The notes beneath the pieces are model-generated. The model made no database searches and was not told where the DNA came from. It saw only the letters and a list, made by a program, of their open reading frames with translations. Shown one piece after another: positions 4,736-44,696 of a stretch of DNA of 64,000 nt (positions are counted from its first letter, which is position 1; each line of letters opens with the position of its first letter). This DNA is from Asparagopsis taxiformis (Eukaryota > Rhodophyta > Florideophyceae > Bonnemaisoniales > Bonnemaisoniaceae): assembly GCA_030407315.1 (NCBI GenBank), contig JALQPE010001699.1:78342-142341 (forward strand), read 5' to 3'. The position numbers were made by a program, and so were the translations under genes.

Positions 4736-5143
4736 TCAGTCTATGAAGCTTTGATCCATGCAATTCAATACCTTTGTTTCTGCTTTCCCCTTGCCCGCCC
4801 TCTGCCCCGCTACCCAACTGCCAAAATTCGACGGCAGTGCATGAACAAATCGATCCGCCTGCACGCACATTGCCGCGTCTACCAATCTCGACATGCCCAT
4901 TGCATCTTGACTGACTCCAAACTCCTCTGGATTAAACCAATGAACTGTCTTCAACTCTTCTGAAATTCTTTTCTTCGTCGCATTCGTCGCCAGATAAGCA
5001 CGAATCAACGCCGTTTCTCCGCCCTTCCACCCGTGATTATACATATCAGATACAATATAAAACACAGCACTATTCCCAAGCCCTTCGGCTTGTCGTTTCG
5101 CCTCTAATATCACTTCTTCCGTGCAATTCGTAATCCAGACGGA
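4736..5143 (-). pseudogene. C-terminal fragment of a protein O-fucosyltransferase-like gene
   Basis: The minus-strand frame encodes about 135 residues ending in a natural stop at 4736. It contains AVFYIVSDMYNHGWKGG followed later by VDAAMCVQADRFVHALPSNF. This resembles the C-terminal part of GDP-fucose protein O-fucosyltransferase-like enzymes, where a donor-binding strand-turn is followed by an 'ADRFVG...SSF' motif. These enzymes act in the secretory pathway. The reading frame meets a stop at 5144-5146, and no N-terminal catalytic part is found upstream. Another open frame at 5147-5305 (minus) with ALCELALAHADDTRVMVLL could be displaced or unrelated coding sequence. A repeat begins at about 5305, so the gene has probably been cut by an insertion or rearrangement. 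It could instead be a last exon if an intron is hidden. Confidence 0.45.
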
Positions 5144-5304
5144 TCAGCAGCTCGGCCAGAAGCACCATGACGCGCGTGTCGTCCGCGTGCGCGAGCGCCA
5201 GCTCGCACAGCGCGATCGCAAGATGTAGACTCTTCTTGTCGCCGCTTTGACGCCCGAGTTGCGCCACAACGCGTCGCAGCCGCGCAATGTACGACACGCG
5301 TCTG

Positions 5305-5600
5305 TGTTCTCGGAAATGGACGCGGACGTCCACAACCTCTAGTACACCTAGTATTACTAGGCGGACGTCCATGTTCTCCAGTATTTTTGGATGTCCGCCT
5401 AGAACCGGACGTCCATGCGGTCTAGTACGTCTAGTATTACTAGGGCGACATTCATTGTTTCTAGTACCACGGATGTCCCCCTCGGGATGGACTTCCGCCA
5501 TGTCTATGTCCACCTAGGACGGGCGCCGGTTCAGAAATTCAAAAATTTCGACCCCAGAAATTTCTGCCGCCGTGCTCGACATGGATGTCCGCATCCATCA
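5305..5600. repeat. CTAG/GGACGTCC-rich repeat (R2), 5.3-kb copy
   Basis: The left tip, TCTGTGTTCTCGGAAATGGA followed by CGCGGACGTCCA, is nearly the same as the right tip of the repeat block that ends at about 27262 in the opposite orientation. Inside are repeated GGACGTCC or GGATGTCC boxes and CTAGTA...CTAGTATTACTAGG motifs. No coding capacity. It may be a small non-autonomous element or a fragment of a satellite-like family. Confidence 0.55.
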
Positions 5601-6894: not shown

Positions 6895-7470
6895 GTGCGG
6901 GAATTTTCGGCACAGGAGATGCTGGGCCACCAAATTGATTTTTCGGAAATTTTAGAATTTCTGGGCTGGCCAGCAATGCAATCGAGCTGGACATCCACCG
7001 GACGTCCATTTCAGGTTGGTCGCGAGAGGGTGGGGCGGGACCATGATGAAACAAGGACCAAGACCTTTCCCTGACGTGTTGAGCCTGAAATCGACCCTTC
7101 GTGAGACGCGATTTTGGCTTACAGTTGGTGCTAATAGAAGCCAGTGATAGCCCCGATCGGGGCGGCAGCCGGCTCCGGCTTACAGTTGGTGCTTACAGAC
7201 GCCAGTGATAGCCCCCGATCGGGGCCGGCGGTCGGTTCCTGGGGCCGTTGTGGCCAAATTAGACACCCTGATTTGAATTAAAATTTGGGCTATTCTCAAA
7301 AACATGCACATGTGAACATGTTTTTGAGATGGGGGTGTGCCGTACGGCACAATCGACCGCCCAAATCGATGTTTTTTGCAATATTTTTTTGTGCCCGAAA
7401 TTGTAGAATTTCTGGGCCGGCCAGGAATGCATCTGAGTTGGACATCCACCGGACGTCCATTTCAGGTGAT
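6895..7470 (+). repeat. R1 repeat array, left copies (forward)
   Basis: A partial R1 unit (about 6945-7255) is followed by a second unit starting with AATTAGACACCCTGATTTGA at 7257. R1 hallmarks in order: a hairpin with TCAAAAACATG / CATGTTTTTGA arms, the 14-bp perfect palindrome GTGCCGTACGGCAC (7337-7350), a conserved AGAATTTCTGGGC box, and CATCCACCGGACGTCCATTT. It lies about 270 bp beyond the stop codon of the ParB-like fusion gene. Short ORFs that recur at every R1 copy are by-products of this repeat. Confidence 0.8.
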
Positions 7471-7741: not shown

Positions 7742-10700
7742 CTAGCCGTCGGAAAACTGTTCTTCCTCTTCGTCCTCACTATGATAGTGAACTAGATATC
7801 CAGGTTGTCCCGGCAGAAGAGGCACTACCGGGGCCACACTCGGTGTGTGCATTACATCCTTGCGAGGTTCTGTCGTCTTCATCCGCATCATTCGGAGCTG
7901 CCCTGTCTTCGGCCTACCATCTTTCTTGACCGGGATGGGAACAACTGTCTTGTGGCGAACATTGACAGGTGCCGGTTGACTTTGCCTTGCAGACCGGCGC
8001 GGAGCATTGGCGATGACTTCTTCTTCGAATCCCAACCGCCTGATGAAACCAAACGAAACATTGTCGGGAATCGGATACGACGCATTCCTGAAATACGTGT
8101 GATACCTCGTTGTCGTGTGTGACACAACTCTGTCGACATGCCCTGCCCCGGCATGTTGTACATGGCCGTGACCGATGAAGACTGAACGTGGCGGAACGAT
8201 TACCTTCTTCAGCTTCATCGTCTTGGCGTACATATCTAATTCCAGCGCTTTGGAAAAGACGTACTTGTGGGACCCTGGACACACCCAGATAGGGAATGGG
8301 TCATCTCCGTTGGCAATAACAAAGTAACCCGGAAGTTGATCTTTGCGGTCGCGAGGAGGAACAGGGAAATCATTGTGTGGGACCTGCCGAGGACACCCCT
8401 TTCCCGTTATCAAAAACCGTCCCCCAGATGCCGGCATGACAAGTTTTTCTCCCGGTAAACCGCACTCCTCCAGCCCTGTCAGCCGGACAAGGATTCCCAA
8501 CCACACATCCAGCAGGGCTCGCCGCGTCACAAACTTGAACCGGTCGATATGCGTCTCATCGTTCTCGGCATAGTCAACCAGGCAGTGGCGCGTAGACGTG
8601 AAGCGAGCCCTCCCCTCATTCCGGTTCTTCTCGTCTGTTTCATCGTCCCCCGTATTGACAATGGGACTCCACAGCTGCCGGTTCCCAGGGTCCTTGTGCA
8701 CCTGCTCCCCCTCCCACGTTCCCAAAAAGTACCGAAACAATTCCTGGTTAGGAATTTCTTCCATGAGACCCAAGTCAAATGGGAACTTGTCCGACGCATC
8801 TAGGTAGCTTACATCCGCGAAATTGTGCATCACCGTATACCCTCGCTCGTTGATTTCCGTTCGGCAATTGTGGAAGTACGCCATACCAGTGCCGGCCTCA
8901 TACGAATCCTTCCAGCTTGTAGACATTCGCGCAACCTGAGCGAAGTCCAGCCTCGAGGGTAGAAACGTCGATGTAGGCTCACACATCGCCTTGGCAGCCA
9001 TCTTCCACGCTGCGAAGAACATCGGATAGACGTGATCGATTTCGAATAGCACACGAGCCCGATGTTCTTCCGGAATATGCAGCCCCTCAAACACAGGGTC
9101 CATCGCCACTTGCTTCAAATACCTCACCTCTCTGCCCTCCTCATCGATTTCCACACTCTCCAATAACAACCTGAGCTCAATCGGGGGCAGACAGCCAACC
9201 CTCACCGATGCGATGACATCCGCGGGACGCTGCGCCAGATGATGCCCTTCGGCTCGGTCTTCGAAATCGTCAGGAAGAGACGGCATACGGTCGTCGAAGA
9301 GGAGGTCGTCTTCAGAAGGAGAGTCACGAACGATGTAACCGTCTTCATCGACTTCCACTCCTTCCGGAACAGTGAATGTAATTGTCACTTCGCGGACCCC
9401 CTTGCTTTCGACTTGGCCCTCGTCTGCACCCTGTTTGTCTTCCTCGTCCGAAGCGGTATGGACAGATTCTTGGTTGGAGGGAGTCGCACCAGCACGTTGG
9501 TTATCTTGGGGGACAATCTCAACGGCAGAATCGGGGGAACGGGCGGAGTCTTCGTCAACCTCATCACCGGAAGCAGTGGCTTGTTGTTGATCGGTGGGTT
9601 TATCAACAACGGCCTGCTCTTCTTCCCCGGCGGATTGTTGTACCACAACCGGCTCTTCTTCCTCGAGGCGTGTGCTCCCCGTCGAGCGAAGTCGCTGTGA
9701 ACGGCGGCGGATGCCATGCGAAGCAGGCTCATGTTCGACATTCCGCTGCTTCTTGTGAGTGAGTCTCACATTGGCAGCAGAAGGGCGGCGTTTGCGTCGA
9801 GCCTTAGTCTTCTTCTTCAATGTCGGATTGAAAAACTCTTTCAAGTTCGTTTCCAAATCCTGTAAACGCGTGGTTCTCCGTCGCATTCGAACCTCACTGC
9901 TCCGGTCGTCCCCTCTATACATTGCAATGGCATTGGTGAGATGCCATTGCAACTCCTTCGGCTGCTTAACCGACCCAATTGCCATCTCTGTGCTCAGAAA
10001 TGACTTGCGCATAATACTCTTTGGGCGCCCAAACGCAGCGTACAGAGAATTTGCTATTGCAGTCACGCGACGGACGTATGTATAAAAGTCGTTCACGTCA
10101 AAGCGTCCATCCGGACGTCCGCCATGAGCAGGGTTCAAGTACTCCGAAAGACCACGCAAGACGAAGACAAAGTTTTCTTCCAGCAACTCGCGCACTATCT
10201 TGTGGTCCAGGTGCGTTATCCCAATCTCGTTGCGGCGCTCGGAATTGTTCAGCTCACGCAACACGTCGTCGAGAACAGGATGCTTCAGCGTTGCTATAGC
10301 CAAACGCGTCCACCGCCGAGCCGTGTTCGTCGAATTCATCATCCCCATGAACTGCGCCTCGAACAATGTTCGGATGACATCAGACTCACGCAAGTCGCCA
10401 GCGTTTTCCACGTTGTTTGCAACAGCAATCGTACGGATGAACTGCTGGATGGACGACAAGATTCGAACCAGGGAGCGCTCCGTCAGTTGCGTCCCAGTCG
10501 TATGGTTCGACTCTGCACTCTTGTGGATGATCTCATGAGGCTGGAGATCACTGTCGTCCTTGCGGCGAAGGTAGTACACATCCAGAGGCTGAGTAACCCA
10601 GCGCAAGCGGTTTGCCTCCTGTGGCAGCTTGGTTCTGTGCATACGGGTGAGGCGCGTGAAGTCATCCGCAATGCTATGCATAGCATTGAGACGATGCAGT

Positions 10701-11674
10701 CCGTCGATCACGGTCACGTTCGCATTGGCATGGAATTTGCCATTCTGGAACAGACGCGTGTCGGCGGACAAATGCGTGTTCTGCGACCTCAGCACCGTCA
10801 CAGTGATACGCGAAGAGCTCACATACCCCACCGCCAACATATTGTTGCGCAGGTCCTCCACGTGGTCTTCTTTGACATCGCGAAGGGTCACGGCCGGTTC
10901 CACTAGCTGCCTCACCAACACAGTCGCTCCTTCTCCGACGTAATCCGACGTCACAAACTTGGGCACCATAATTTGCGTCCCCTGCTGCTCACGAATGCTT
11001 TCCGCCACCTCCGGTTCGTCGTCCACCTCGGTTACGTCCTGCGTAGTAGCTTCGGTGACGTTGGAGCGAGCAGGGTGCTTCGTGCCTCCACTGGAGGCTC
11101 TGGCAGAGCGAGCAGGGCGCTTCGTGCCTCCCGAAACCGGGACGGAGCGTGCTGGATGCTTCGTACCCCCCGAACCAGTGATTTCGCCTGCTGGACCGGT
11201 ACTGGGCATCCGTCCCGAGCTGGCCTGGTTCGTCGCTGCGTTGAAGTTTGACGCTGCAGCAGGGGTACGAATGTCGCTAGAGCCATCCTCCGCAGCGGGG
11301 CGCATCATCCGAGTATCCCAAGGGTAAAACGCCGCGGCGTATGCTCCACCCATCGTCTCCGGCGGTCCCTCGGCGCCATCAAACATGTACGGGAACGGGA
11401 GGTCCTTGAACTTGTCCTTAGTCGCAATGTTGCGCACGACGATATAGTCGGCCTCGTCGGTTTCCGGCAGCTTGTGGTTGTGCAGCGTGCGCGGAAGGCC
11501 AACATCGCCACCAGCAGTGCTCACCGAAGCCGTCCCAATATGCACAGCCGCACCGTCCACGTCCGCAAACAAGTCGACATCGACGCCGCGCTTGAGTCCG
11601 CGCGACTCCGCTGACGCGCTCACTTGATCGCCGCAAACCGTTGAAAACAAACTGCTGAAATGCGTATCCGCCAT
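7742..11674 (-). CDS. ParB-like nuclease domain fused to 2-oxoglutarate/Fe(II) dioxygenase-like domain
   Basis: One uninterrupted frame of 1310 residues from the ATG at 11674, which sits in a strong ACCATGG context; the frame is open for 61 codons further up, but that start is less likely. The N-terminal 230 residues are low-complexity and contain three spaced copies of GGTK(H/R)PARS (about 168-205). Residues about 250-380 contain VIDGLHRLNAM (DGLHR at 324-328), matching the DGxHR core of ParB/sulfiredoxin-fold proteins. A basic cluster (KKKTKARRKRRP, about 620) may be a nuclear localisation signal, followed by an acidic linker. Near the C terminus is a double-stranded beta-helix iron site: H1100-N-D1102, a CPGSH turn, VQHAGAG with H1174, and R1190 as a possible 2-oxoglutarate ligand. 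The dioxygenase part resembles phytanoyl-CoA-hydroxylase-like folds more than TET/JBP. The substrate is unknown; a nucleic acid or chromatin protein is inferred from the fusion and neighbour. R1 repeats flank it on both sides. Confidence 0.75.
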   Translation of the reverse strand: MADTHFSSLFSTVCGDQVSASAESRGLKRGVDVDLFADVDGAAVHIGTASVSTAGGDVGLPRTLHNHKLPETDEADYIVVRNIATKDKFKDLPFPYMFDGAEGPPETMGGAYAAAFYPWDTRMMRPAAEDGSSDIRTPAAASNFNAATNQASSGRMPSTGPAGEITGSGGTKHPARSVPVSGGTKRPARSARASSGGTKHPARSNVTEATTQDVTEVDDEPEVAESIREQQGTQIMVPKFVTSDYVGEGATVLVRQLVEPAVTLRDVKEDHVEDLRNNMLAVGYVSSSRITVTVLRSQNTHLSADTRLFQNGKFHANANVTVIDGLHRLNAMHSIADDFTRLTRMHRTKLPQEANRLRWVTQPLDVYYLRRKDDSDLQPHEIIHKSAESNHTTGTQLTERSLVRILSSIQQFIRTIAVANNVENAGDLRESDVIRTLFEAQFMGMMNSTNTARRWTRLAIATLKHPVLDDVLRELNNSERRNEIGITHLDHKIVRELLEENFVFVLRGLSEYLNPAHGGRPDGRFDVNDFYTYVRRVTAIANSLYAAFGRPKSIMRKSFLSTEMAIGSVKQPKELQWHLTNAIAMYRGDDRSSEVRMRRRTTRLQDLETNLKEFFNPTLKKKTKARRKRRPSAANVRLTHKKQRNVEHEPASHGIRRRSQRLRSTGSTRLEEEEPVVVQQSAGEEEQAVVDKPTDQQQATASGDEVDEDSARSPDSAVEIVPQDNQRAGATPSNQESVHTASDEEDKQGADEGQVESKGVREVTITFTVPEGVEVDEDGYIVRDSPSEDDLLFDDRMPSLPDDFEDRAEGHHLAQRPADVIASVRVGCLPPIELRLLLESVEIDEEGREVRYLKQVAMDPVFEGLHIPEEHRARVLFEIDHVYPMFFAAWKMAAKAMCEPTSTFLPSRLDFAQVARMSTSWKDSYEAGTGMAYFHNCRTEINERGYTVMHNFADVSYLDASDKFPFDLGLMEEIPNQELFRYFLGTWEGEQVHKDPGNRQLWSPIVNTGDDETDEKNRNEGRARFTSTRHCLVDYAENDETHIDRFKFVTRRALLDVWLGILVRLTGLEECGLPGEKLVMPASGGRFLITGKGCPRQVPHNDFPVPPRDRKDQLPGYFVIANGDDPFPIWVCPGSHKYVFSKALELDMYAKTMKLKKVIVPPRSVFIGHGHVQHAGAGHVDRVVSHTTTRYHTYFRNASYPIPDNVSFGFIRRLGFEEEVIANAPRRSARQSQPAPVNVRHKTVVPIPVKKDGRPKTGQLRMMRMKTTEPRKDVMHTPSVAPVVPLLPGQPGYLVHYHSEDEEEEQFSDG

Positions 11675-11954: not shown

Positions 11955-13170
11955 TAAAATTACAGCTGTCAAGCTAGGCGGCTTTTGGGGCGGCTGCGAG
12001 CACCCCTTTATCCGGGGAACACCCTGATTTGAGTTAAAATTTGGGCTATTCTCAAAAACATGCACATGTGAACATGTTTTTGAGATGGGGGTGTGCCGTA
12101 CGGCACAATCGACCCGCCCAAATCGTTGATTTTTGCAAGATTTTTTGTGCCCGAAATTTTAGAATTTCTGGGCTGGCCAGCAGTGCATCTGAGATGGACA
12201 TCCACCGGACGTCCATTTCAGGTTGGTCGTGTGCTGCCTACATCCACGCATTGCAGCAACTAAGCAGGCGGGTTCACTACTAATATAAAGTGCACGGAAT
12301 ATGAGTAACGTGATGGGTGAGTAGTGTTTCTGTTGAGGGAGTAAGGCGGGACCATGATGAAACACGGAAGAAGATTTCTCCCTAGCATAACTTAGGCTTG
12401 AAGCCTGCAATCGGCCCATCTTCCGGCGCCATTTAGCCTCACAGTTAGTGCTTACAGAAGCCAGTGATGACCCCGCTCGGGGCGGCGGCCGGTTCCTGGG
12501 GCCGTTGTGGCCAAATTAGACACCCTGATTTGAATTAAAATTTGGGCTATTCTCAAAAACATGCACATGTGAACATGTTTTTGAAATGGGGGTGTGCCGT
12601 ACGGCACAAACGACCCGCTGAAATCGTTGATTTTTTACAATTTTTTTGTGCCCGAAATTTTAGAATTTCCGGGCTGGCCAGCAGTGCAATCGAGCTGGAC
12701 ATCCACCGGACGTGCATTTCAGGTTGGTCGTGAGAGAGTGGGGTGGGACCATGATGGAACAAGGACCAAGACCTGTCCCTGGCGTATTGAGCCTGAAATT
12801 GACCCTTTGTCAGACGCCATTTAGCCTTACAGTTAGTGCTTACAGAAGCCAGTGACAACCCCACTCGGGGCGGCGGTCGGTTCCTGGGGCCGTTGTGGCC
12901 AAATTAGACACCCTGATTTGAATTAAAATTTGGGCTATTCTCAAAAACATGCACATGTGAACATGTTTTTGAGATGGGGGTGTGCCGTACGGCACAATCG
13001 ACCCGCTGAAATCGATGTTTTTTGCAATATTTTTTCTGCCCTGAATTGTAGAATTTCTGGGCTGGACAGCAATGCAACTGAGCTGGACATCCACCGGGCG
13101 TCCATTTCAACTTGGTCTTGTATTTTGCATCTGCACGCATAACAGCAACCAAGCAGTCAGGTTCACTGCT
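11955..13170 (+). repeat. R1 repeat array, central copies (forward)
   Basis: Three R1 core units begin near 12020, 12513 and 12901 (the last two 388 bp apart), each with the GTGCCGTACGGCAC palindrome (12093-12106, 12594-12607, 12982-12995) and a CCACCGG(A/G)CGT box; GGACGTCC is intact only in the first. The units are joined by a spacer reading CTTACAG...GAAGCCAGTGA and GTTCCTGGGGCCGTTGTGG. The left tip (AATTACAGCTGTCAAGCTAGGC, near 11957) recurs in inverted orientation at about 18740-18755. The array separates the 5' end of the ParB-like gene from the 3' end of the methyltransferase gene. Confidence 0.8.
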
Positions 13171-13337: not shown

Positions 13338-16300
13338 CTAATTCCATGCTCTAAACGCTGTCCCATAATGAACGTAGAGCTCCTGCCCCGGACGGATATC
13401 GCGGATTGCACGTACTACAATGATCTTCGGATTTTCTAGGTCCTTCGCCTTGAGCTTCTTCCCCGTCGAACCGCTGCTGTAGTTCTCGACAAACTCGACG
13501 TTGGCCATCCGCCTGGTGTCTTCCGCCGGAGTGTCCTCACCTCGCAAATACCGCGGGTCGTTGATGAACTGCGCCGAACAGAACGGAGCCGGAACAATCC
13601 AAATTGGATGCTCGATGTTTTCGTCGTCCTCCGCTGTTGCATACAGCTTGATAGCATACATCAAGAATGTTTCCTTCGTTATCGCCATGTGACCCTCTCC
13701 GTACGCGAACCTCATCGACTCCTTGCTCATATCAGAGTACACAACAGTTCCGTAGTATGCACATACTTCGTCACCAACATTAAATGTCTGTTCAGCGAAG
13801 AGCCCTCTTCCTGCATTTGGATGCTTAATCAGCGATGGTCGAACGCTCAATTTTTTCGCAACACAATCGTGTGCCCGCATCACGCGAGGGTTTTCAGTTT
13901 GCAACCAGCGGCGCAGGGAAGGTGGCCAATAATGTACCGGTTTCTCCATGTGCTCGCGCGACGCAATCGACTCTGGGCACAGCTGCCAGAGGTACTGCCG
14001 AATATATTTCGGGAACCTCTGGTACAGGGGAAGGCCAGGTGGGGGTTCGATGATCCTGCGTTCCCTCTGCGTACGCATCGTGACAGAGGGGGACGCCAAG
14101 AACTTCTCAGCACTCTGTTTCGCTTCTGTCGTGACCCTCATGTCAGTGTTGTTTGAAAGAATTACACGTGACATGACTGCACACAGCTTTGGAAGCGATC
14201 GTACCACACACAATTTGTCCATGTCACTGCCGACGAAAACACGGTGCTCAGGCAAGCTCATAGCTGCTTTTCCCGTTGCGAAAGTGCCAGAGAATGGATC
14301 GACAACAATATCACCAGGCTGTGAATGCTGGCTGATCAACTCCATCATGAGAGCGACGCTCTTCTGCTCTGCACGAACTCTGACCGTAGCACCGGTTGTG
14401 CTCCTTGTTCGCCACACCATCTCATTCGAATCGATGGCGGGCATATTGATGGTGACGTTGCACCACGCCGGGTACGTGCCGTCCATGTATCCGTGGTTCC
14501 TATAGGCCACCATCTCGCTTCCGGTCTTGAACGGAACACCTCGCTTCCAGAAGTGGATAGCGACCTCTGCCATGTTCATGCGTTGGTACCTCTTCCGCCC
14601 CGGCATTTGATAGAGGTGCCCAGGTAGTCGGACAAACAACAGAGGTACCTCGTCAACGAAGAAAACTGAATTCCGAACGACGTCCTCCTCCTCCTCGTCC
14701 TCCTCCTCATCCGCACTTTCTTCGCCACTGTGCTGCGATGCTTCGGAGTCCGAATTCATGGACGTAACCTCTTCTTCATCCGACCCGTCATCACTGGCAG
14801 CAGTATCGGTTGGGCCTTCTGACTGCGGTCCTTTGTACGTTTCCAAGTAATGGAACCATTCGTAGAACTGCAAAACCGAGCAGAACACGATGCCGTGGCC
14901 ACCGGGGCGCAACAGCTCGTCAAACACTTCGATGCTAGCCTGCATATCTTCTGCAGTTAGCCTGTCGTACGAAGAGTTGGAATCGTTCCTCTTACGACGA
15001 ACATTGTAGGGCGGATCAGTCAGAATGAGCTGAACGTTGCCCGTGATGGGCACGTGTTCTCGGCTCTCGTCGGCACTGACCAAATCTTCGAAAGGGACGT
15101 CGTACACCCGGCAATACTGACTCATTTTCGAAAGAAAGTCCTTTGCGAGAGCCTGCCCTTCACTTTCCTGCTCTTCTGTCGCATGGGGTGACGGTGACGG
15201 GGGAGACGGCCCTTGGGCAGTAAGACTGGTCCTCCCAGGTCCAAGTTGAAGCCTGGTTGTGTGTCTTGTCGACGGAACCAAACCTCTCCCTCCTGTGTTG
15301 CGACGAGTGGGAGTGTCATCAACCGGCTTGGGGACCTTTTCTGCGTCCGCGGCTTGTGGTGCCGGGCGGAGGACAGCCATAACGTCTTCGTCGAGGGTGT
15401 CAAAATACGCTGGCAGCTTGTCCGGATTTCCGCTTGAGAAGTATATTTCCAGTGCCCCCCAGCGGTCGGACTCCGGCCAGGTGTACAGGTCCGGGTTGAC
15501 GATAAGAAACTGCAACCGGTCGAAGAACTTCCTCACAAGGTCCCTAAATGCACTGTGCTGCGCACTGGTTCTTGTCTCTACTTTTCCACCATATCCATCA
15601 GGATGAGATAGGGGAGCTTTGTTGTGGTAGAGATCTAGCTTCTGCTCCATCGGTGCGAATAGACCTTCATCGAGCACGTCAAACCAATGCTCACTGCTGT
15701 CGAAAATGATGTACGGCGCCATCAACTCTTCGAAGCTGGAAAACTTTGCGGCGTAGGCCACATCGGTCCAAGCATGGTATAAAACTTGAACCACGTAACA
15801 AGCTCGATTAGTGCTTTTCCGATGGGCTGGGACGCGTGCGGCTTCGTTCCCCTCTTCGGCCGCATCTCCTATTCGGCGACGCGGCAGGTTCTTGTTGTGA
15901 TTTCGGATGATAGACAACGCTTGGAAATACATCAATACCTCGAACGTTTCCGGTGGAGCAAGAACGAAGGCGCTTGGTTCCCCGCGCTGCGGCGCCTGTA
16001 GTGGCGAAGGAAGCATGTTACATCCAATAAGGAAGGTCTGCGGCACGATCCCAGAAAGGATGCAGTGCTCAACCCATTGCCCGATACGCTCATCCTGTCT
16101 TGAAAACTCGGCAATGGGTAATGCCAGACGAACAATCTGCTTGGCTCGCTCAACGTTCATCTCTGCCATGACGATTTCGGCAACATCCGCCTCGACTCCA
16201 GCATTCTTCGAACGACCGCTGAAGGACATGCTGAGTCGACCTTGCAGCGCCACAAATTGTTCTTCCGTGCCCTGCGCAACCCAAGCGCCAAGGTCCGCGT

Positions 16301-16535
16301 ATGTGAAACCTCCCGGCTTGTCCGTCAAGTCTGCGAAACTTGAGTGGGCGAATAAATCCAGCAAGAGGCGGAGGAAGTCTTTGCCAGCGAGAGTAGTTTC
16401 GCGGGCGGCGCGACCTACGTTTCGACGTGTACCCATGTCACTAGAATCCTCCCAAGGGCTAGCGGGTTCGCGCAGAATTGGCACGGTTGCGTCGTCAACG
16501 ATCGGATTGCTGTTGCGCCTGCGCTTATTCGTCAT
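13338..16535 (-). CDS. DNA (adenine/N4-cytosine) methyltransferase fused to SET domain
   Basis: One uninterrupted frame of 1065 residues from the ATG at 16535; the frame is open 86 codons further up, but the MTNKRRR start gives a sensible basic N terminus. Residues 1-400 match nothing I know. Residues about 480-800 form a Rossmann methyltransferase: LILTDPPYNV (DPPY 507-510, motif IV) precedes VVDPFSGTFATGKA (746-755, motif I, SAM binding). DPPY is the signature of exocyclic-amino methyltransferases (N6-adenine or N4-cytosine), and the IV-before-I order matches the beta class. A highly acidic insert (about 570-620) separates the motifs. Residues about 901-1065 form a SET lysine methyltransferase domain: NAGRGLFAEQ (908-917), FINDPR (990-995), NVEF (1012-1015) and GQELYVHYG with the expected catalytic Tyr 1057. 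The likely role is joint DNA and histone methylation in the nucleus. No stop or frameshift is visible. Confidence 0.82.
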   Translation of the reverse strand: MTNKRRRNSNPIVDDATVPILREPASPWEDSSDMGTRRNVGRAARETTLAGKDFLRLLLDLFAHSSFADLTDKPGGFTYADLGAWVAQGTEEQFVALQGRLSMSFSGRSKNAGVEADVAEIVMAEMNVERAKQIVRLALPIAEFSRQDERIGQWVEHCILSGIVPQTFLIGCNMLPSPLQAPQRGEPSAFVLAPPETFEVLMYFQALSIIRNHNKNLPRRRIGDAAEEGNEAARVPAHRKSTNRACYVVQVLYHAWTDVAYAAKFSSFEELMAPYIIFDSSEHWFDVLDEGLFAPMEQKLDLYHNKAPLSHPDGYGGKVETRTSAQHSAFRDLVRKFFDRLQFLIVNPDLYTWPESDRWGALEIYFSSGNPDKLPAYFDTLDEDVMAVLRPAPQAADAEKVPKPVDDTPTRRNTGGRGLVPSTRHTTRLQLGPGRTSLTAQGPSPPSPSPHATEEQESEGQALAKDFLSKMSQYCRVYDVPFEDLVSADESREHVPITGNVQLILTDPPYNVRRKRNDSNSSYDRLTAEDMQASIEVFDELLRPGGHGIVFCSVLQFYEWFHYLETYKGPQSEGPTDTAASDDGSDEEEVTSMNSDSEASQHSGEESADEEEDEEEEDVVRNSVFFVDEVPLLFVRLPGHLYQMPGRKRYQRMNMAEVAIHFWKRGVPFKTGSEMVAYRNHGYMDGTYPAWCNVTINMPAIDSNEMVWRTRSTTGATVRVRAEQKSVALMMELISQHSQPGDIVVDPFSGTFATGKAAMSLPEHRVFVGSDMDKLCVVRSLPKLCAVMSRVILSNNTDMRVTTEAKQSAEKFLASPSVTMRTQRERRIIEPPPGLPLYQRFPKYIRQYLWQLCPESIASREHMEKPVHYWPPSLRRWLQTENPRVMRAHDCVAKKLSVRPSLIKHPNAGRGLFAEQTFNVGDEVCAYYGTVVYSDMSKESMRFAYGEGHMAITKETFLMYAIKLYATAEDDENIEHPIWIVPAPFCSAQFINDPRYLRGEDTPAEDTRRMANVEFVENYSSGSTGKKLKAKDLENPKIIVVRAIRDIRPGQELYVHYGTAFRAWN

Positions 16536-16849: not shown

Positions 16850-17045
16850 CCGGACGGCCACTGGACGTGGGGATGTCCGACTCAGATGCATTGCTGGCCA
16901 GCCCAGAAATTCTACAATTTCGGGCAGAAAAAATATTGCAAAAAACATCGATTTCGGCGGTCGATTGTGCCGTACGGCACACCCCCATCTCAAAAACATG
17001 TTCACATGTGCATGTTTTTGAGAATAGCCCAAATTTTAATTCAAA
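16850..17045 (-). repeat. R1 repeat, reverse copy upstream of methyltransferase gene
   Basis: One R1 core in the opposite orientation to the copies at 6.9-13.2 kb, with the palindrome GTGCCGTACGGCAC at 16967-16980. The GGACGTCC end is degraded (GGACGTGGGGATGTCC). It lies about 310 bp upstream of the methyltransferase start codon. Confidence 0.8.
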
Positions 17046-17317
17046 GCAGGATGCAGATATTCGTCTTCTACCATTGTCAGAACACATTCGTATAACCACA
17101 TTTGGAGAACCTGAGCCCAGAGCTATCGGTTTTGGCGGGAGCTAAGCCATATCTCATATAATCAGTAACTACTTCCCGCCAGCTGAGTGGTGGAACCCCT
17201 GCTATTTCTACCAACGAGACATACGGGGTGTCAACTCGGCAATCGTATATGATTTGGGTGCTAAATTTATTCAAGAGACGAATGGGCTTCGAAAAGGAGC
17301 CCAACTACGTCTACTTG
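17046..17317. other. Short intergenic stretch, nothing seen
   Basis: No ORF, repeat or RNA gene that I can support. Confidence 0.4.
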
Positions 17318-17690
17318 TGATCCATGGGTATAGGACTATTCTATTCTTCTCCAGGCTTCCACCGTAGCCGCCTCCTCCGCCTCCGTTAATGGAAAGAATA
17401 TCCGAACCGCACCTCAACATGTTCTTCATGTGATCCATGGGTACTGACATCTCACATGCTCTCCAGGCTTCCACCGTAGCCGCCTCCTCCGCCTCCGTTA
17501 ATGGCAACAATATCCAAACTGGACCTCTACATGTTTTTCTTGTGATCCATGGGTACTGACATCTCACATGTTCTCCAGGCTTCCTCCAAAGCCGCCACCT
17601 CCACCTCCGTTAATGGAAAGAATACCCGAACCGCAGGCTTCCTCCATAGCCGCCTCCACCTCCGTTAATGGCAAAAACATCTCACCGGGC
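17318..17690. repeat. Tandem repeat, about 112-bp unit, 3+ copies
   Basis: Units starting with TGATCCATGGGTA occur at 17318, 17431 and 17543, each containing CTCCAGGCTTCC, GCCGCCTCC and CTCCGTTAATGG. A partial fourth copy of the GCCGCCTCC...GTTAATGG core ends near 17690. The reverse strand would give glycine-rich peptides, but no gene structure supports translation. Confidence 0.75.
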
Positions 17691-18134: not shown

Positions 18135-18755
18135 CACATAGCTAATGCATTACTGGCCAGCCCAGAAATTGTAGAATTTCGGGCAGCAAAAATATTGTAA
18201 AAAACCTTGATTTGGGCGGCCGATTGTGCCGTACGGCACACCCCCATTTCAAAAACATGTTCACATGTGCATGTTTTTGAGAATAGCCCAAATTTTAATT
18301 CAAATCAGGGTGTCTAATTTGGCCACAACGGCCCCAGGAACCGACCGCCGCCCCGAGCGGGGTCATCACTGGCTTCTGTAAGCACCAACTGTAAGGCTAA
18401 ATGGCGTCTGACGAAGGGTCAATTTCAGGCTCAATACGCCAGGGACAGGTCTTGGTCCTTGTTCCATCATGGTCCCGCCCCGCTCTCTCACGACCAACCT
18501 GAAATGGACGTCCGGTGGATGTCCAGCTCGATTGCATTGCTGGCCAGCCCAGAAATTCTAAAATTTCGGGCACAAAAAAATATTGCAAAAAACATCGATT
18601 TGGGCGGTCGATTGTGCCGTACGGCACACCCCCATCTCAAAAACATGTTCACATGTGCATGTTTTTGAGAATAGCCCAAATTTTAATTCAAATCAGGACG
18701 TCTTCCGGACATAGGGGTGCTCGCGGCCTAGCTCGACAGCTGTAATTGTACCTCA
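18135..18755 (-). repeat. R1 repeat array, right copies (reverse)
   Basis: Two R1 cores in reverse orientation, with palindromes at 18226-18239 and 18614-18627 and an intact TGGACGTCCGGTGGATGTCC box at 18504-18523. The right tip (CGAGCACCCC/AGCTCGACAGCTGTAATT in inverse sense, to about 18755) matches the left tip of the central array near 11957. The pair therefore forms inverted outer ends about 6.8 kb apart around the methyltransferase-SET gene. The tip is about 175 bp upstream of the next gene. Confidence 0.8.
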
Positions 18756-18930: not shown

Positions 18931-21215
18931 ATGCCGCCGCGTATTGCGAAGAAAGCTCCAAAGCCTCCGGGCCTCCAGAAAACCCGGTCAGCAGCTGCTG
19001 TATCGAGTGCCCGACAATCCCGTGCGAAGAAGCGGTCTGGGCCTACCGGCAGCATTGAACCGCGGTCCGGTAGTCGCAAGACGGACCGGCGCAGAACTGG
19101 GGATCCGCAGCGAGAAAGTGAGGAAGGAGGAACGGCGCGGAGAGAGATGGGGCTTGACCGAGGCAAGCGTGCTCGCAGGGACAGTGAACATCATGATGAT
19201 GACATGATAGTGGCTCAAAACATGTTGGAATTGCGGCAGAGTGCTATGGCAAAGGTAGTTCCTCCCGGGTTGGCAGATGCGGAGGTGCTGCAGACGGAGT
19301 CCCAGCCGGGGGTTCCGACACACTGGAGGCTGTGACCCCCACTGCGCCAACTATGCCGAGTACATCAGCCCCAGCAGGTAATGCAGTCAGGGACCCGAGG
19401 ATAGCGGCAAGGGATGTTGTTTCTGAGCAACGTTCACAGGATGCCAACTATCATCGGCGGTCAGGTGGTACTGAGGGGAGAGAGCAGCCGGAGTGCGGGC
19501 CTCGTCACAACAGAGTGTCATTGGTGCCAAATATGCGCGTAACGCCCCCGCGACGTCAGGCTATTGGCGATGGAGGACATCATATTCCCGATAGCGTGGG
19601 AGATGGGGGGACGGTGAGGGCAGAGAGGTTGCATCCGCCGGAATCCATCGATTTAATGGCGAGTCGCATCAATGCGCAGAAGAAGAAGATCGCGGAGCTG
19701 GAAAAAAAAGTGTTTAGCCAGGACATAGCAAACAAGGCGCTCACCACGGAGATTGTTGCGTTGGAGGCTAAGGTGAAGACTCTGCAGGCGGAAAATGCCA
19801 GCCTTACTGCAATTGCGAGAACAGGTAGAATCAGTGATCACGGTGGCGGTAAGTCGAAAATACAGAAAGCCATTCCTGTGAAATACCTTGGAGTTCTTAG
19901 GGCGGTTGAGGAAAACCTGACAAAGTGGTGCAAGAACGAGACTATGGAGCTGGACCCTATAGCGGAACAAACGCAGAGACGTTGGACTGGACGTACCATC
20001 GAGGTAGAGCCGGTAGAAGGGGCACTTTGGAGCGAAAACGGTGTAGGATATATTGCTACCCCTCCGGGCTATATCATCAAGAATCTGCAGTGGTATACAC
20101 CTTCGTACAGGGACGAGAGTGATCTGCTGAATGACTTGGTGCGACACGTACTGCGTCAAAGTCCGTGGTGTGATGTGTTTTCCGATGAGGAGCAGCGTGT
20201 GTGCTGTCAAGAGGCTGTGGCGGGGAGCAAGGAATTGAAAGTGAAGGTGACGCAGAAACTGTCCGACGTGATGAGTGCACGGAAGCGTAATGCGAGGGAC
20301 AGATTGTTCGGTTCGCTGGGGTACACGAAATTAATGTCTAGATGCACGATGCTGACGACGCGAGCTGAGATGGACGAGCGAGAGGAACAAAAGCGCGAAG
20401 CGTCTGAGAAGCTTTTGAAACGGGAAAGTAACGGTGATTTGGATATGGGGAGGTGGCGAACGGCACCGTTCTCAGAGCTGCGATACAGCAAAGGCTTGGT
20501 TCCTGACAGCTTCGAAATGGAAGTGAATGGTGATGCATGGTTTAACAACCGAGTAGCTGTGAATGTGCTGGACATCTTCAGGGGTTATTCGATACGACCA
20601 GAACAAGTAATGGACATAGAGACGAGCATACTAACGCTGGCGCGCCTGGATGCTTGGCTAGTGACTACTGTGGAGTGTTTGGATGAACCGAAGGGGAAAG
20701 GAGGTGCACGGCAGAAGGAGTTTACAAGGCGGTACAGTCAATATGTGGGGGTAGCTTTTCAGCAATTAGTTGGTATGGTGGTGTACTGCATGTCTTGTCT
20801 CCAAGGCTCGCAAGCAAGGGAAGAAACGGACGTTGTCGAGAGCGAACAGCGGACTAGTGCACAGTCACGGCATGTGTTTGCAAGCCGTACTGTGACGAGA
20901 GAGGCTGTTGAAGTGTGGCAAAGCGGAGAGGGGTCTGGAATTGTTCATGTCGTTGATGATGTAAACCGCTGCTCATCACTTGTTCTAGTGTCCGAGGATT
21001 GGATTCAATCGCATATTACGTCAAACCTCGGTGCTGTAATGGATTGTGTGATTGCGCAAGGACTAATTGGCGCAGAACTTTTCGTCGTTGACCCATATGC
21101 TGGACACCTGACTGCAAACCTGAATGTCGAAATCAATGCCCCACAGTATGGGGGCATGGAGCGGCGCCATGCAGCCACTGCTGATAACGGTTTTGGCGTA
21201 ATGGAGGATGGTTGA
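18931..21215 (+). CDS. Coiled-coil protein, putative transposon accessory protein (frameshifted)
   Basis: The gene appears to start with MPPRIAKKAPKPPG at 18931, a basic Ala/Lys/Pro-rich N terminus, and to continue in another frame to 21215. The first frame ends at a TGA at 19333-19335. The second frame is open from 19203 with no ATG near its start, so one shift in the 19203-19332 overlap joins them (about 760 residues). A real indel, an assembly error or a very short intron could explain it. The second part has a clear coiled coil (AQKKKIAELEKKVFSQDIA through KTLQAENASLT, about residues 115-165 of the second frame), then an unrecognised globular region. It is convergent with the transposase-like gene, 77 bp away, as in two-gene DNA transposons. 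A DNA-binding or assembly role is inference. Its promoter side abuts the right R1 array. Confidence 0.5.
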
Positions 21216-21292: not shown

Positions 21293-24200
21293 TTATTCTT
21301 CTTCATTATCATCTGTGAATTGGTAATCAGTGTTGGTGTAGAAGCGGTTGAGATAGAAACGGTGGTCCGACCAGTGCATTTGTTTCGTAAATGGCTTGAC
21401 TGGAAAGTTACTTCGTACGATGTGCACGGTGCCAGATATAGTAGATGCAGGAATGAGGTCAAACCAAGGACCACCTGCACTGTGGGATGCAGTGTCATTG
21501 CTGTCAACGGATCCGTTGTCCGGGTCCCATGTGGACCACTTTAAACAAATGCACCCAAGTGATTTTTCCACAGCGGTTTTTGGGGCAAAGCAGGTCATAT
21601 ACTGAACGAAAGCGAGTTCTACAGGTTGAAACAGGTTTGGAGACTGCAGGCGTACCAGTGCCAGGACGCGCCCTACCCATATGGTTCTGTAGTCATCGGC
21701 AGTTCCGGAGATGACGACAAAGGAGTACTGCGATCTCTTTGCGGGGCCGAACGATGAAGTTGCAAAGACGCGCTGCTGCTTGTGCCTCGACACGTTTGTG
21801 GGGCGAAGCATGCCACTGTGCGGGTCAAAGTCGTCGGCATCTGGGACGTACCCTCCCATGACGTAGGCGGACTTTACCACGGTGACGGAAATGTCCATGT
21901 CATGTATTGGAGGGCCTTCTGCCGTGGCGCGCAGTCTAGCGAGGGTGAGGAACGCTTGTGCAGCTGTGTCACCGAGTTGCTGGAATAGCGTTATGGTGCC
22001 AGACGGGAACGAGGAGTTGTGCAGCGGCAAAAGAGTGGCAGGATCGGGCTGTCCGTCGATATCTGCAACGAGGAGGGTTGCATCGGGCAGCAGGGAGGCA
22101 AAGTCGTGCAGTGCAACGGTGAATCCGTCGCGAACGAGTACTGCACCGTCTGTGGGCGATATCATGCGTGCGTTTCCCAATGTGTTCGATGGGGTATGAC
22201 CAGTTGGAGTGGCCAAGGAGAATTCCATGTGGCGAATAGTCTCTTCCATGGCTGTGGAGCGCCTTCGAGAGGTTTTCCTATAACTCTGTTTGAACAGAAG
22301 ATGCGAGTGTTCGTAGGGGCCTGCATCAATGTGTTCCAGGGCGCCATATCTCTGCAAGTCACCGGGAAGATGGTCTAGAAGATGGAACTTGAAAGTTTTG
22401 AGACCTGTGGTGTGGAATGGGCCGAGGGTGGAGAGCATTGATTGTTTGAAATAGGAAATGGAGTTCTGGAGGCTTTCTAGTTCGGCGGCAGTCCAGTGCT
22501 TGATGCGACCGCGTTTCATGACCCATGCGACGAGGTCAGAGTATTGCGTGCAGATGGAAGTGAGGGGGGCTGTATCTACTTCGTCACAGCATGTGTCAAT
22601 GAATGCTGCGATGAAAGGGAACACCATGTCGACATGGTGATAGTCTTTGGCTGCGAGCATGCCGCGTATGCCGTCCTCCGTGAAGAGGCCGTTCAAATTG
22701 GTGCCCTTCTCACCCTTGGAGAAGTCGACATGAAGACCGGTGATGTAGTAGTCGCGTTCGATAGCGGACAGAATGCTGTTTGAGCCGGCGAGGATGGATT
22801 TTTTCACCTTCTTGAAGGTGCGAGGTGTCCCGGAATGGGAGGCAGTGGTGGTGAGGTCTGGGGAGCTGAGGCGGTGGACAATGCACTGTTTGATGAGCTT
22901 TGAGATGCCGAGGTGGAGATTGTGCAGAGGCTCGAAGGAGAAAATGTTGTAGGGGTCTAGGGGACTGTTGGTGGGTAAAAGAGCGGTCGATTCGAGGACA
23001 GAGTGTTGTTCGAGGAGGGAGAGAGCTTCGAGCGGAGCAGTTGTATGCTCCTGAGCGCTCTCTTGGCGTGCAGAGCGTGTATCATCGAGGGAGCGGGGCT
23101 GGTGTGGCGCGCTGGATTCAAGTTGAGTGGCGGGGATGTAGCAGCGGTGGCAGGGATGTGTGGTGGTAGTGCTGTTGCGAGTGCATGAGAGCTCTTTGGC
23201 CTCTGGAAAGTCGCAGCAATAATTGGCTAGGATGGGAAAGCATTGGCGGGCAGTTGCAGTGGAGTCTGTGCAGGGGAACCCGGAAGAGAACGCGGTGGAT
23301 AGGGACGAAAACACTTTTTCGAGTGCTTTATGAAGAATATCAATTTTGCGAGCGCGACTAGCAGAACTAGAGGTTGTCGGCATTTCATCACCGAACAAGG
23401 CGTTGGACGAAGGGTTAACAATGTACGGAAGATACCCGACGATGGTGAGGCCGGTACGGATGCAGTGGCGACGGAGGGGGGCGGAGAAGTTGAGCAGTGT
23501 GACGTGTATGGGGTATGCGACGATTGCGGAGCTCTTGAGGCTTGTGCTGCTCTTGTCGGAGTACACTTGGAGGAGGCCGGCAAAGGAGGAAGCGGTGGGA
23601 TCATTTTCCTCTGCCCATACGACCTGTGGATCTTCCGAGAGCTGCACGCGCTGTCTAGTAACCTGGTGCAGCGTTTTCGCGAATTCTGTGTGTAGGGGAT
23701 GAGAAAATATTGCGGTGCCGTCTGGGGCGGTCTGTGGGGAGGGGTGGAAGAGAGTATTTTGGTCGTTAGCCAGTGCTAACTGCCTGCGGAGCATGTCGAC
23801 TGGGTCGCGGAGGTACAGCTGTGCCGAGTACTTACCAGTTTTGTCTGGAATGATGTGGCTCTTGTAACCTTCGGTGCGGAAATGTGTTTCGACCATGGAA
23901 GCGGTAACGTGGCGACATTCTTCTACGGTGCGAACGGCGCTGTTGAACTTTTCTAGGGAGAATGCGGGGTCTTGTAGGATGGTGATGACTTCGCTCACGC
24001 GGCCAGCGCCGGCCTTGTACTCGAGGGTTGTGAGACTGGCGGCGAGGGATTGCACGAGGAGGTCTGCGCGGGAGGGGGTTGAGGTTGGTGGCAGTGAAGC
24101 GTCACAGGGTGAGTCGCTGGAGGAAGCACGACCAGATTCTGGGTCTGGGGAGCTGGGTTGCGGGGAATCATGGTCGCCGTTTCGAGCAGGCTCATGGGTG

Positions 24201-24331
24201 ACGGCAGGGACACGAGCGTTGTTGAAATGTTGGGGAGAGGGGTTGAAACGGTAGCGACACGTTCGCTCATGCAGCGCGAGCGCATAAGCATCTACGCAGT
24301 AGTAGAAGCACCCTTCATACTTGCATTCCAT
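21293..24331 (-). CDS. Tnp2/Plavaka-like DNA transposase (putative)
   Basis: One intact frame of 1012 residues. The N terminus carries a probable zinc finger (MECKYEGCFYYC... with H21 and C25). A second Cys/His cluster, THPCHRCYIPATQL (middle of the protein), is followed by SFEPLHNLHLGISKLIKQC, which resembles the D/E-x-L-H...K block of Tnp2 and Plavaka-type (CACTA-related) transposases. Downstream, FKFHLLDHLPGDLQRYGALE and DAGPYEHSHLLFKQSYRKTS match the conserved tail of the same group. The likely role is cut-and-paste transposition in the nucleus. The catalytic triad was not verified. Its 3' end faces the coiled-coil gene. I found no R1-like terminal repeat beyond its 5' end (24332-24980), so the right end of the element is not located. 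Confidence 0.6.
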   Translation of the reverse strand: MECKYEGCFYYCVDAYALALHERTCRYRFNPSPQHFNNARVPAVTHEPARNGDHDSPQPSSPDPESGRASSSDSPCDASLPPTSTPSRADLLVQSLAASLTTLEYKAGAGRVSEVITILQDPAFSLEKFNSAVRTVEECRHVTASMVETHFRTEGYKSHIIPDKTGKYSAQLYLRDPVDMLRRQLALANDQNTLFHPSPQTAPDGTAIFSHPLHTEFAKTLHQVTRQRVQLSEDPQVVWAEENDPTASSFAGLLQVYSDKSSTSLKSSAIVAYPIHVTLLNFSAPLRRHCIRTGLTIVGYLPYIVNPSSNALFGDEMPTTSSSASRARKIDILHKALEKVFSSLSTAFSSGFPCTDSTATARQCFPILANYCCDFPEAKELSCTRNSTTTTHPCHRCYIPATQLESSAPHQPRSLDDTRSARQESAQEHTTAPLEALSLLEQHSVLESTALLPTNSPLDPYNIFSFEPLHNLHLGISKLIKQCIVHRLSSPDLTTTASHSGTPRTFKKVKKSILAGSNSILSAIERDYYITGLHVDFSKGEKGTNLNGLFTEDGIRGMLAAKDYHHVDMVFPFIAAFIDTCCDEVDTAPLTSICTQYSDLVAWVMKRGRIKHWTAAELESLQNSISYFKQSMLSTLGPFHTTGLKTFKFHLLDHLPGDLQRYGALEHIDAGPYEHSHLLFKQSYRKTSRRRSTAMEETIRHMEFSLATPTGHTPSNTLGNARMISPTDGAVLVRDGFTVALHDFASLLPDATLLVADIDGQPDPATLLPLHNSSFPSGTITLFQQLGDTAAQAFLTLARLRATAEGPPIHDMDISVTVVKSAYVMGGYVPDADDFDPHSGMLRPTNVSRHKQQRVFATSSFGPAKRSQYSFVVISGTADDYRTIWVGRVLALVRLQSPNLFQPVELAFVQYMTCFAPKTAVEKSLGCICLKWSTWDPDNGSVDSNDTASHSAGGPWFDLIPASTISGTVHIVRSNFPVKPFTKQMHWSDHRFYLNRFYTNTDYQFTDDNEEE

Positions 24332-26610: not shown

Positions 26611-27126
26611 TGGATGTCGGGTCCTAGTATTCCGCCATATGTACTAGAGAAAGTGGATGTCGGGTCCTAGTATTCCGCCATATGTACTAGAGAAAGTGGA
26701 TGTCGGGTCCTAGTATTCCGCCATATGTACTAGAGAAAGTGGATGTCGGGTCCTAGTATTCCGCCATATGTACTAGAGAAAGTGGATGTCGGGTCCTAGT
26801 ATTCCGCCATATGTACTAGAGAAAGTGGATGTCGGGTCCTAGTATTCCGCCAAATGTACTAGAGAAAGTGGATGTCGGGTCCTAGTATTCCGCCATATGT
26901 ACTAGAGAAAGTGGATGTCGGGTCCTAGTATTCCGCCATATGTACTAGAGAAAGTGGATGTCGGGTCCTAGTATTCCGCCAATGTACTAGAGAAAGTGGA
27001 TGTCGGGTCCTAGTATTCCGCCAAACGTACTAGAGAAAGTGGATGTCGGGTCCTAGTATTCCGCCATATGTACTAGAGAAAGTGGATGTCGGGCCCTAGT
27101 ATTCCGCCATATGTACTAGAGAAAGT
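26611..27126. repeat. Satellite: twelve 43-bp tandem copies
   Basis: The unit starts with GTGGATGTCGGGTCCTAGTA and continues TTCCGCCATATGTACTAGAG. Copies begin at about 43-bp steps from 26611 to 27083 and are almost identical, with a few single-base changes and small deletions. The array leads into a GGACGTCC inverted repeat next to the truncated end of gypsy element A. Confidence 0.9.
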
Positions 27127-27262
27127 GGACGTCCGCATCCAAAAAATTTTTATTTTTTTTTGGACGCGGACGTTCATTTGTTCTAGTAAATCTCGGGGCC
27201 GACTAGGACCCGTACTAGAGAGACTGGACGTCCGCGTCCACTTCCGAAAACACAGACGATAC
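27127..27262. repeat. R2 repeat tip with hairpin, joining satellite to element A
   Basis: TGGACGTCCGC at 27127 pairs with GCGGACGTTCA at about 27167 around an A/T-rich loop. The block ends with GGACGTCCGCGTCCACTTCC and then GAAAACACAGA, the inverse of the tip seen at 5305. Immediately beyond it the integrase frame of element A resumes, so the boundary is sharp. Confidence 0.6.
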
Positions 27263-44300: not shown

Positions 44301-44696
44301 GGAACTGCTACGGCTGAGGCTGTGGTCGAACCCGCCACGAGTAAGCCAACCTCCGCGGTTGCTACCCCTACGGCGACGGGTGTTACTGGTGTCGCCACCG
44401 CTGGGGGTACTGAAAAAGAGTCTGAGGGCATAAAGGAGGCAACTCCTAAACCCACTGACACAACCTCCCCGGGTGGAGAGTCCGTGCAAGTCGTTGAAGA
44501 CCCTCGATCGCCCACGCGCGCCACGCGTCGCCTCAACGTGACGTCACCGGTGGCGACAGTCGCGGCCGCAGTGGCGGCGGCGGGGCAACGAGTCGCCCGA
44601 AGGCGTAAAAGGGCTCAGCCCTCTTCCCCTTCAGCGAGCGTGGGGTCTCCAATTAACAAGGACAGGCCGACTCGTCGGACTCGTACGCGCCGTTAG
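41378..44696 (+). CDS. Antisense coiled-coil gene of element B
   Basis: A plus-strand gene inside a minus-strand retrotransposon. The first frame starts MYPSTPPPSFSSS at 41378; the second runs to 44696. They overlap at 41760-41902, and a G run at about 41826-41832 is the probable place of a one-base shift. The joined product would be about 1,100 residues. Order: Pro/Ser/Thr-rich N terminus; a conserved core shared with the element C gene (TIPANFPSDVYHL, PRGYVITFKDVEY, HTEWVCYYAATWL); a coiled coil (LEKRVEELQRAVSAGRERLA and AELMAENTLLKRKHDD); an Ala/Thr/Pro tail; and a basic end (RPTRRTRTRR). No transmembrane segment or signal peptide is visible, so it is not an obvious envelope protein. AATAAA lies 97 bp past the stop. 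Function unknown. Plant gypsy elements with antisense genes are an analogy only. Confidence 0.65.

Follow-up and report, generated by a model that had tools for sequence, protein, structure and literature searches.

Results

The window analyzed here is a 64,000-nucleotide stretch of the red alga Asparagopsis taxiformis (GenBank assembly GCA_030407315.1, contig JALQPE010001699.1, positions 78,342 to 142,341). On its minus strand, at 13338-16535, lies a gene, recognized from its open reading frame (ORF), its Pfam matches and its relatives, that encodes a 1065-amino acid protein in which an amino-methyltransferase is fused to a SET domain. The fusion gene is a resident of an autonomous 22-kb Plavaka-type DNA transposon, the whole of which occupies 21,960 bp at 5299-27258, as defined by comparison with a copy on C436 and by its inverted-repeat ends.

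The methyltransferase-SET fusion protein

Translation of the minus strand from ATG to stop yields a single frame of 1065 residues, as a sequence-only reading of this DNA had proposed; in the ORF list the frame is prolonged upstream to a TTG at 16793. That reading had also placed a DPPY motif at residues 507-510 and a DPFSGTF motif at 746-752, and both positions are right: motif IV precedes the S-adenosylmethionine (AdoMet) motif, which is the beta order. The methyltransferase domain (residues 501-774; 14214-15035, minus strand) matches Pfam N6_N4_Mtase (PF01555) at 3.4e-15, with 57 bits against a cut-off of 26.7, and contains an acidic insert at about residues 561-620; the family assigned to it earlier is thereby borne out. 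No match to MT-A70 (PF05063) was present at E≤1 in the Pfam scan. With a family profile, the best named solved DNA enzymes are the adenine methyltransferases DpnA (5.6e-13), CcrM, MboIIA and RsrI, and two chains labelled just "Methyltransferase" are also among the best solved structures, listed after DpnA. The PADLOC models matched by the window protein (P0001) are those of type II and other methyltransferases; P0009 matches none. The middle domain is a bacterial-type beta-order amino-methyltransferase, for which N6-adenine specificity is the most likely prediction from DPPY and the nearest relatives.

The SET domain (residues 909-1058; 13362-13811, minus strand) matches Pfam PF00856 at 1e-06, with 29.5 bits against a cut-off of 22.4, and at 2.5e-08 when this piece is searched alone. 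The nearest solved SET chains are both weak matches, KMT2B with the family profile (2.3e-4) and, when the SET piece is searched by itself, KMT5A (0.0011). The catalytic-type motifs formerly ascribed to this domain stand in part, the profile match, GxG and the terminal ELxxxYG all being present while the NHxC position reads INDPR. The domain would methylate a lysine, probably of a histone. Pfam finds SET but no chromodomain in the window protein. The N-terminal part (residues 1-480; 15096-16535, minus strand) is conserved, with a mean identity of 0.25 over residues 46-395 in 13 family pairs, and is still unassigned, as it was from the letters alone: residues 1-480 have no significant Pfam match (the best, at 0.67, is under the cut-off) and no PDB match at E≤5.

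A protein search gave seven relatives, namely P0002, a full-length protein with both domains that comes from a different sequence source and is 98% identical, and six diverged proteins of 27-33% identity that align along the same architecture as the fusion protein. The search table gives N6_N4_Mtase for all seven and SET for five; in a Pfam scan of the six diverged relatives, both domains are above cut-off in four, SET is under the cut-off in P0007, and it is unmatched in P0005, a protein that ends early. Because P0002 and four of the diverged relatives carry both domains, a chance fusion or a mis-joined reading is excluded. Calculated without the 98% twin, mean pairwise identity reaches 0.42 and 0.37 for the halves of the methyltransferase domain and 0.38 for SET, compared with 0.21-0.25 for the linkers, the insert and the N-terminal part, so both domains have been conserved. 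When proteins were searched again, with the family profile, the 98% twin alone was returned, although diverged relatives exist, and the sensitivity of that search is therefore poor. Among viral_contigs there are 78 matching loci, 73 of them solely within residues 693-813 and 5 elsewhere in the methyltransferase domain, and the 56 pattern-matching stretches in genome_contigs (bacteria and archaea) encode no relative.

Extent, ends and genes of the transposon

The limits of the shared unit were drawn from stretches around ten copies together with longer stretches of the C436 copy. The latter match window 5299-27258 in pieces at 98.4-99.98% identity; the C436 copy has about 1.1 kb of extra repeat modules near its left end, and beyond both element ends the flanks of the window and C436 copies differ. 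The left terminal inverted repeat, 47 nucleotides at 5299-5345 (plus strand), is 87% complementary to the right one at 27212-27258 (minus strand), which was identified by this complementarity and by a count of the end pattern. In the assembly searched (141,494,207 bp, 3156 contigs), the end pattern occurs at 2415 places, 1210 in one sense and 1205 in the other, and its reversed control at none. The outer termini are CGTCTGTG..CACAGACG, with TGT starting at the fifth base; the termini of PlavakaA are TGT..ACA and those of PlavakaB CATCA..TGATG. Twelve end pairs were compared (ten fetched, the window and C436), a pair being taken as neighboring facing ends. Seven have 2-bp target duplications (TA, TA, TT, AA, TG, GA and AT), and the chance of seven or more among 12 at 1/16 each is 2.2e-06; the other five, the window copy, C12b, C11, C88 and C67, share no 2-bp duplication. 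Kojima gives target duplications of 2 bp for PlavakaA and of 2 or 3 bp for PlavakaB (PMC12730594).

The 1012-amino acid ORF at 21293-24331 (minus strand) is a Plavaka transposase by its match to Pfam PF18759 over residues 149-478 (1.6e-24, 87.2 bits against a cut-off of 26.3), and it is likely to be the mover of the element. A 627-amino acid ORF at 19332-21215 (plus strand) is coiled-coil-like, its Pfam matches being of coiled-coil type and all below the cut-off. A 134-amino acid ORF at 18931-19335 (plus strand) overlaps it by a few bases in a different frame; the 627-amino acid gene may be spliced or frameshifted, with 18931-19335 as a putative preceding exon or frame. Close to the right end, at 26611-27133 (plus strand), is a subterminal tandem array of 12.2 copies of a 43-bp unit. 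A virus or Maverick-like element was considered and rejected, as Pfam shows no gene of that kind among the four large ORFs, in which a reverse transcriptase and a tyrosine recombinase, the features of DIRS elements, are also absent at E≤1. One nested insertion was seen, on C476, where an element copy contains a second element end at the position that corresponds to 19506 in the window.

The remaining large ORF, at 7742-11674 (minus strand), encodes a 1310-amino acid protein in which, by eye, the N-terminal region is ParB-like, with an IDG-HRL motif, and the C-terminal region has motifs resembling those of 2-oxoglutarate (2OG)-Fe(II) dioxygenases. We take its C-terminal HxD...SH...QHAG to be of the PhyH type of these enzymes. 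It has a single relative, P0010 (E 1e-158), which is 34% identical in full alignment and shares the HxD, SH and QHAG patterns. It has no Pfam match and no significant PDB match, TET/JBP included; a ParB-like family, PHROG 1033, matches weakly (E 0.2) over residues 230-345 alone, and unrelated matches are equally strong.

Internal repeats and an invertible segment

A repeat and motif scan found internal modules at 6946-7467 (plus strand), at 11992-13120 on the 3' side of the methyltransferase gene (plus strand), and, inverted, at 16871-17053 on its 5' side (minus strand); further inverted modules lie at 18145-18728 (minus strand). There are seven modules, each with GTGCCGTACGGCAC and a 36-nucleotide palindrome, two of the palindromes having one mismatch. 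Neither sequence occurs elsewhere in the window, and the chance expectation is 0. Between two of the modules, at 17348-17635, is a tandem array of 2.6 copies of a 112-bp unit.

The palindromic form of the modules counts for a reading in which adenine methylation of the ends or modules by the methyltransferase would couple transposition to replication, with SET having a separate chromatin role. Dam methylation couples the transposition of IS10 and IS50 to replication in this manner. Dam-type methyltransferases are also carried by DIRS elements (PMC5890265). Such a clock leaves the fused SET domain unexplained, and we regard it as very unlikely.

The modules at 11992-13120 and 18145-18728 bound an invertible segment containing the methyltransferase gene. 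Arms at 12631-13003 and 18218-18590 are 96% complementary, and on C426 and C444 the methyltransferase segment is reversed between the internal inverted repeats. By exact matches, a transposase place lies within 12 kb of 44 of the 93 typed methyltransferase places; in 36 cases it is on the opposite strand at 5.7-6.1 kb, and in eight it is on the same strand, 6.9-7.3 kb away, with a wrong order in one of the eight (C41). Among 21 element cores, in which the transposase and the 1310-amino acid gene are in element order, the methyltransferase is inverted relative to the window in ten, window-like in four and without an exact motif in seven. Recombination between the internal repeats would explain the two orientations.

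Copy number, identity and derivatives

Patterns of 39 nucleotides, with up to 3 mismatches allowed, were counted in the genome at 978 places for the methyltransferase, 901 for the 1310-amino acid protein, 977 for the transposase and 981 for the 627-amino acid ORF, with controls at 0. If all 978 copies were of the full 21,960 bp, they would amount to 21.5 Mb, or 15% of the assembly. The fusion protein is 100% identical over residues 1-1065, with no stops, at all 43 genome places scored; this is a lower bound, with 43 scored of 4133 first-look candidates and the window's own place not listed. The 1310-amino acid protein is likewise 100% identical at 35 of 35 places scored among 4367 candidates. 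The window, C436, C135 and C1013 are identical across 6801 bp, in which three other copies are 99.6-99.8% identical. A check for deamination used 21 singleton substitutions in two blocks, where 6 C>T/G>A against 6 A>G/T>C are too few for a conclusion. The element is abundant and looks young; an apparently recent expansion has brought it to about a thousand near-identical copies.

A SET domain is a typical feature of host regulators, and the sequence-only reading implied a chromatin protein of the organism. A host chromatin regulator that happens to sit among repeats is nevertheless an explanation with next to no chance of being correct, and for the window copy it is refuted: the gene belongs to a 22-kb DNA transposon, its motif is found 978 times alongside 2415 element ends, and identical full-length proteins are encoded at no fewer than 43 places.

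An 11,138-bp copy (C14:6193-17330; L133, L134) retains the ends of the element and its repeat modules, which form inverted arms, and its first 9,000 bp are free of ORFs that reach 150 amino acids. This copy has the appearance of a non-autonomous derivative that is served in trans. The modules and ends look as though they would be required in cis, because they are kept in this derivative. Derivatives of the 11-kb type may be common, since six of the ten fetched end pairs are spaced 10.0-12.0 kb apart.

Repeat-driven mis-assembly was rejected as the whole story, as the flanks differ among copies on separate contigs. When identical 22-kb repeats are assembled from long reads and then polished with short ones, chimeric joins and copies that are too uniform can result. 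These effects may explain the five end pairs without duplication, that of the window included, and they temper the 100% identities. Two near-copies of a Ty3/gypsy element are found in the window, at 27215-32289 and 57600-62530 (minus strand). The two flanks of the window's transposon copy may not belong together, because the first near-copy is cut off at the right end of the transposon (27258) and the left-side flank frame at 5070-5513 (minus strand) looks unrelated to it.

Host context

Phycobilisomes are characteristic of red algae, and glaucophytes also have them. The assembly has 13 matches to phycobilisome genes, of which 11 are on contig C469 (224,060 bp). On that contig an identical 465-bp gene stretch is repeated 177,170 bp apart, which is consistent with a circular plastid genome of about 177 kb; a 300-base check of the contig start in the 177-kb register matched at 74 of 300 positions and shows nothing. 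A fungal host, to which the Plavaka transposase had pointed, was rejected on account of the phycobilisome matches; an earlier Zn2Cys6 search was uninformative, its controls having no matches either, and ribosomal protein L3 scored almost equally against a plant (639 bits) and fission yeast (638 bits). The published A. taxiformis L6 genome has 142,472,235 bp in 3308 contigs, a plastid of 176,936 bp and 33.48% DNA transposons (PMC12115072). The phycobilisome genes and the Pfam matches together support the earlier proposal of an N6-adenine- or N4-cytosine-type methyltransferase coupled to a predicted lysine methyltransferase domain in a eukaryote. The C5 DNA methylase family PF00145 has 0 matches in the assembly and is detected in 10 of 14 control genomes (bacteria and archaea); its absence is at best specific to this species.

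In the L6 genome paper, the legend of Figure 4 lists two DNA methyltransferases, one site-specific and one adenine-specific, on the contig that carries the bromoform locus (PMC12115072), and we infer that these could be genes of the present element. Using PAP2 to locate the bromoform cluster turned up 12 matches, without an evident cluster among them. Elsewhere in the window, a Ty3/gypsy element spans two ORFs at 47092-50973 (minus strand), the ORF at 47092-49950 (minus strand) having a chromodomain near its C terminus (PF00385, 8.5e-09), and plus-strand ORFs of 978 and 700 amino acids at 41760-44696 and 52098-54200 have no Pfam match at E≤0.01.

Discussion

The presence of the fusion gene on a multicopy transposon suggests a role for its product that we put forward with an even balance of confidence and doubt: a transposon-owned, two-headed writer of N6-methyladenine (6mA) and lysine methylation that keeps the element active. 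The fusion protein would be brought to the element, perhaps via its N-terminal part and the palindrome-bearing repeat modules, and would mark element DNA with 6mA as well as the local nucleosomes. These marks would keep the element transcribable and mobile, and the 1310-amino acid partner, ParB-like and dioxygenase-like by motif, might bind the repeats or edit the marks. We infer here the catalytic activities, the target and the direction of the effect. A permissive effect is favored on two grounds: the abundance and seemingly young age of the element, and the enzymes with a presumed anti-silencing function that other transposons carry (PMC12730594).

The main rival of the permissive reading is the opposite effect, self-restraint, in which the fusion protein would lay repressive DNA and lysine marks on the copies and so limit transposition, or limit competing elements. 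Repressive activity is possible for KMT5A-type and KMT1-type SET enzymes. The closest precedent for a bacterial amino-methyltransferase joined to eukaryotic chromatin, the bdelloid N4CMT with its SETDB1 loop, silences transposons (PMC8885841), and in a unicellular red alga repeats carry H3K27me3 (PMC8566409). However, N4CMT is a host gene whereas the fusion gene belongs to a transposon, and 901-981 motif places with near-identical sampled copies are not suggestive of strong restraint. We consider silencing unlikely, though it deserves to be taken seriously.

Several observations weigh against a two-headed permissive writer. An N4-cytosine enzyme (8s9m) is among the weak structure matches of the methyltransferase domain (E 0.013), and N4-cytosine specificity is possible on this evidence. 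Motif IV is non-canonical in four of the eight family rows (DPPQ, YPPY, APPQ and DPPL). The FxGxG AdoMet motif reads FSGTF in the window protein, and its final G is replaced by F, L or Y in all eight rows; at the NHxC position of SET, seven of the eight rows have INDPR or INDAR and one has MNDPR. The methyltransferase gene may be dispensable in single copies, as in seven of the 21 element cores an exact methyltransferase motif is missing between the transposase and the 1310-amino acid gene, a finding that fits action in trans and also decay. The uniformity of the copies may derive partly from assembly and polishing. The ParB and dioxygenase readings of the 1310-amino acid protein have no significant support in any profile test, and the anti-silencing effect would be argued from precedent only.

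The altered motifs in particular speak for a protein with a single working half, in which the methyltransferase has decayed or serves as a non-catalytic DNA-binding module and SET acts, or the reverse. This explanation is improbable: DPPY is kept in the window copy, the 98% twin and P0003, and P0008 has DPPF, making four of eight rows with DPPY or DPPF; D746, F748, G750 and T751 of motif I are invariant across the family alignment; and the terminal SET tyrosine is present in all seven rows that reach that position. Dual activity is plausible, judged from these residues, for some family members, the window protein included.

The two-headed permissive writer can be extended to a complete transposon-owned system linking both marks in one polypeptide. 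The alga would have no C5 methylases of its own, the transposon would supply DNA methylation through a fused 6mA and histone-lysine writer on about 1000 copies, the dioxygenase would edit the marks, and inversion of the segment would reset expression of the writer. We think this scenario improbable. If the fusion protein is active, the element would allow a direct test of whether a selfish element can establish its own mark linking DNA and histones, and such an element may here be writing chromatin marks for itself. For A. taxiformis L6, some 11.8 Gb of PacBio data, together with RNA-seq and proteomics, are stated to be deposited (PMC12115072), which would make testing cheap if the present DNA is from L6. 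The alga is cultivated for bromoform, and if the methyltransferases of the bromoform contig belong to this element, that would bear on the stability of the locus.

Epigenetic enzymes carried by transposons have precedents (PMC12730594, PMC5890265). The fungal TET/JBP-bearing Plavaka and other DNA transposons likewise combine a Plavaka transposase, 2-bp duplications and epigenetic cargo (PMC12730594). Their cargo is an eraser of 5-methylcytosine, whereas that of the red-algal element is an amino-methyltransferase-SET writer, and the companion 1310-amino acid protein shows dioxygenase-like motifs alone, with no TET/JBP match. The Symbiodinium and Klebsormidium retrotransposons with C5 methyltransferases and the DIRS elements with Dam-like adenine methyltransferases are also multicopy elements that encode a DNA methyltransferase (PMC5890265). 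They are retrotransposons rather than DNA transposons, the term SET domain has 0 occurrences in the text that describes them, and the Symbiodinium elements are old and diverse, in contrast to the near-identical copies found here (PMC5890265).

The bdelloid rotifer N4CMT resembles the fusion protein in its PF01555 domain, in its fusion to a chromatin domain and in its occurrence in a eukaryote said to lack canonical C5-methyltransferases (PMC8885841). It differs in having a chromodomain reader, conserved introns and a host allelic pair, against a SET writer, an uninterrupted frame and a transposon-borne gene in the alga. Transposon-borne SET genes are known from the HarbingerS and MuDR transposons of Phytophthora, and the passage that names them mentions no fusion to a DNA methyltransferase (PMC12730594). 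In SETMAR, SET is joined to a transposon-derived protein, but the gene was kept from one old transposon copy and has a transposase domain instead of a DNA methyltransferase (PMC9062482). ParB-N6_N4 methyltransferase fusions of phages also associate a ParB-like fold with PF01555 on mobile elements (PMC12704722); in the algal transposon the two would reside in different proteins encoded by one element, and the similarity to ParB falls short of significance.

A 2025 survey of eukaryotic 6mA sought MT-A70 enzymes, and red algae, the SET domain and N6_N4 do not appear in its main text (PMC12695648). Searches of an open literature collection, which omits most subscription papers, Repbase reports and bioRxiv, brought up no description of a methyltransferase-SET fusion, and for N6_N4, SET domain and eukaryote together they yielded the rotifer paper alone. 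The components are known singly, C5 and Dam-like methyltransferases in retrotransposons (PMC5890265) and TET/JBP and SET in DNA transposons (PMC12730594); in the A. taxiformis element, one DNA-transposon polypeptide joins a DNA amino-methyltransferase to a SET domain, beside an unassigned protein with dioxygenase-like motifs.

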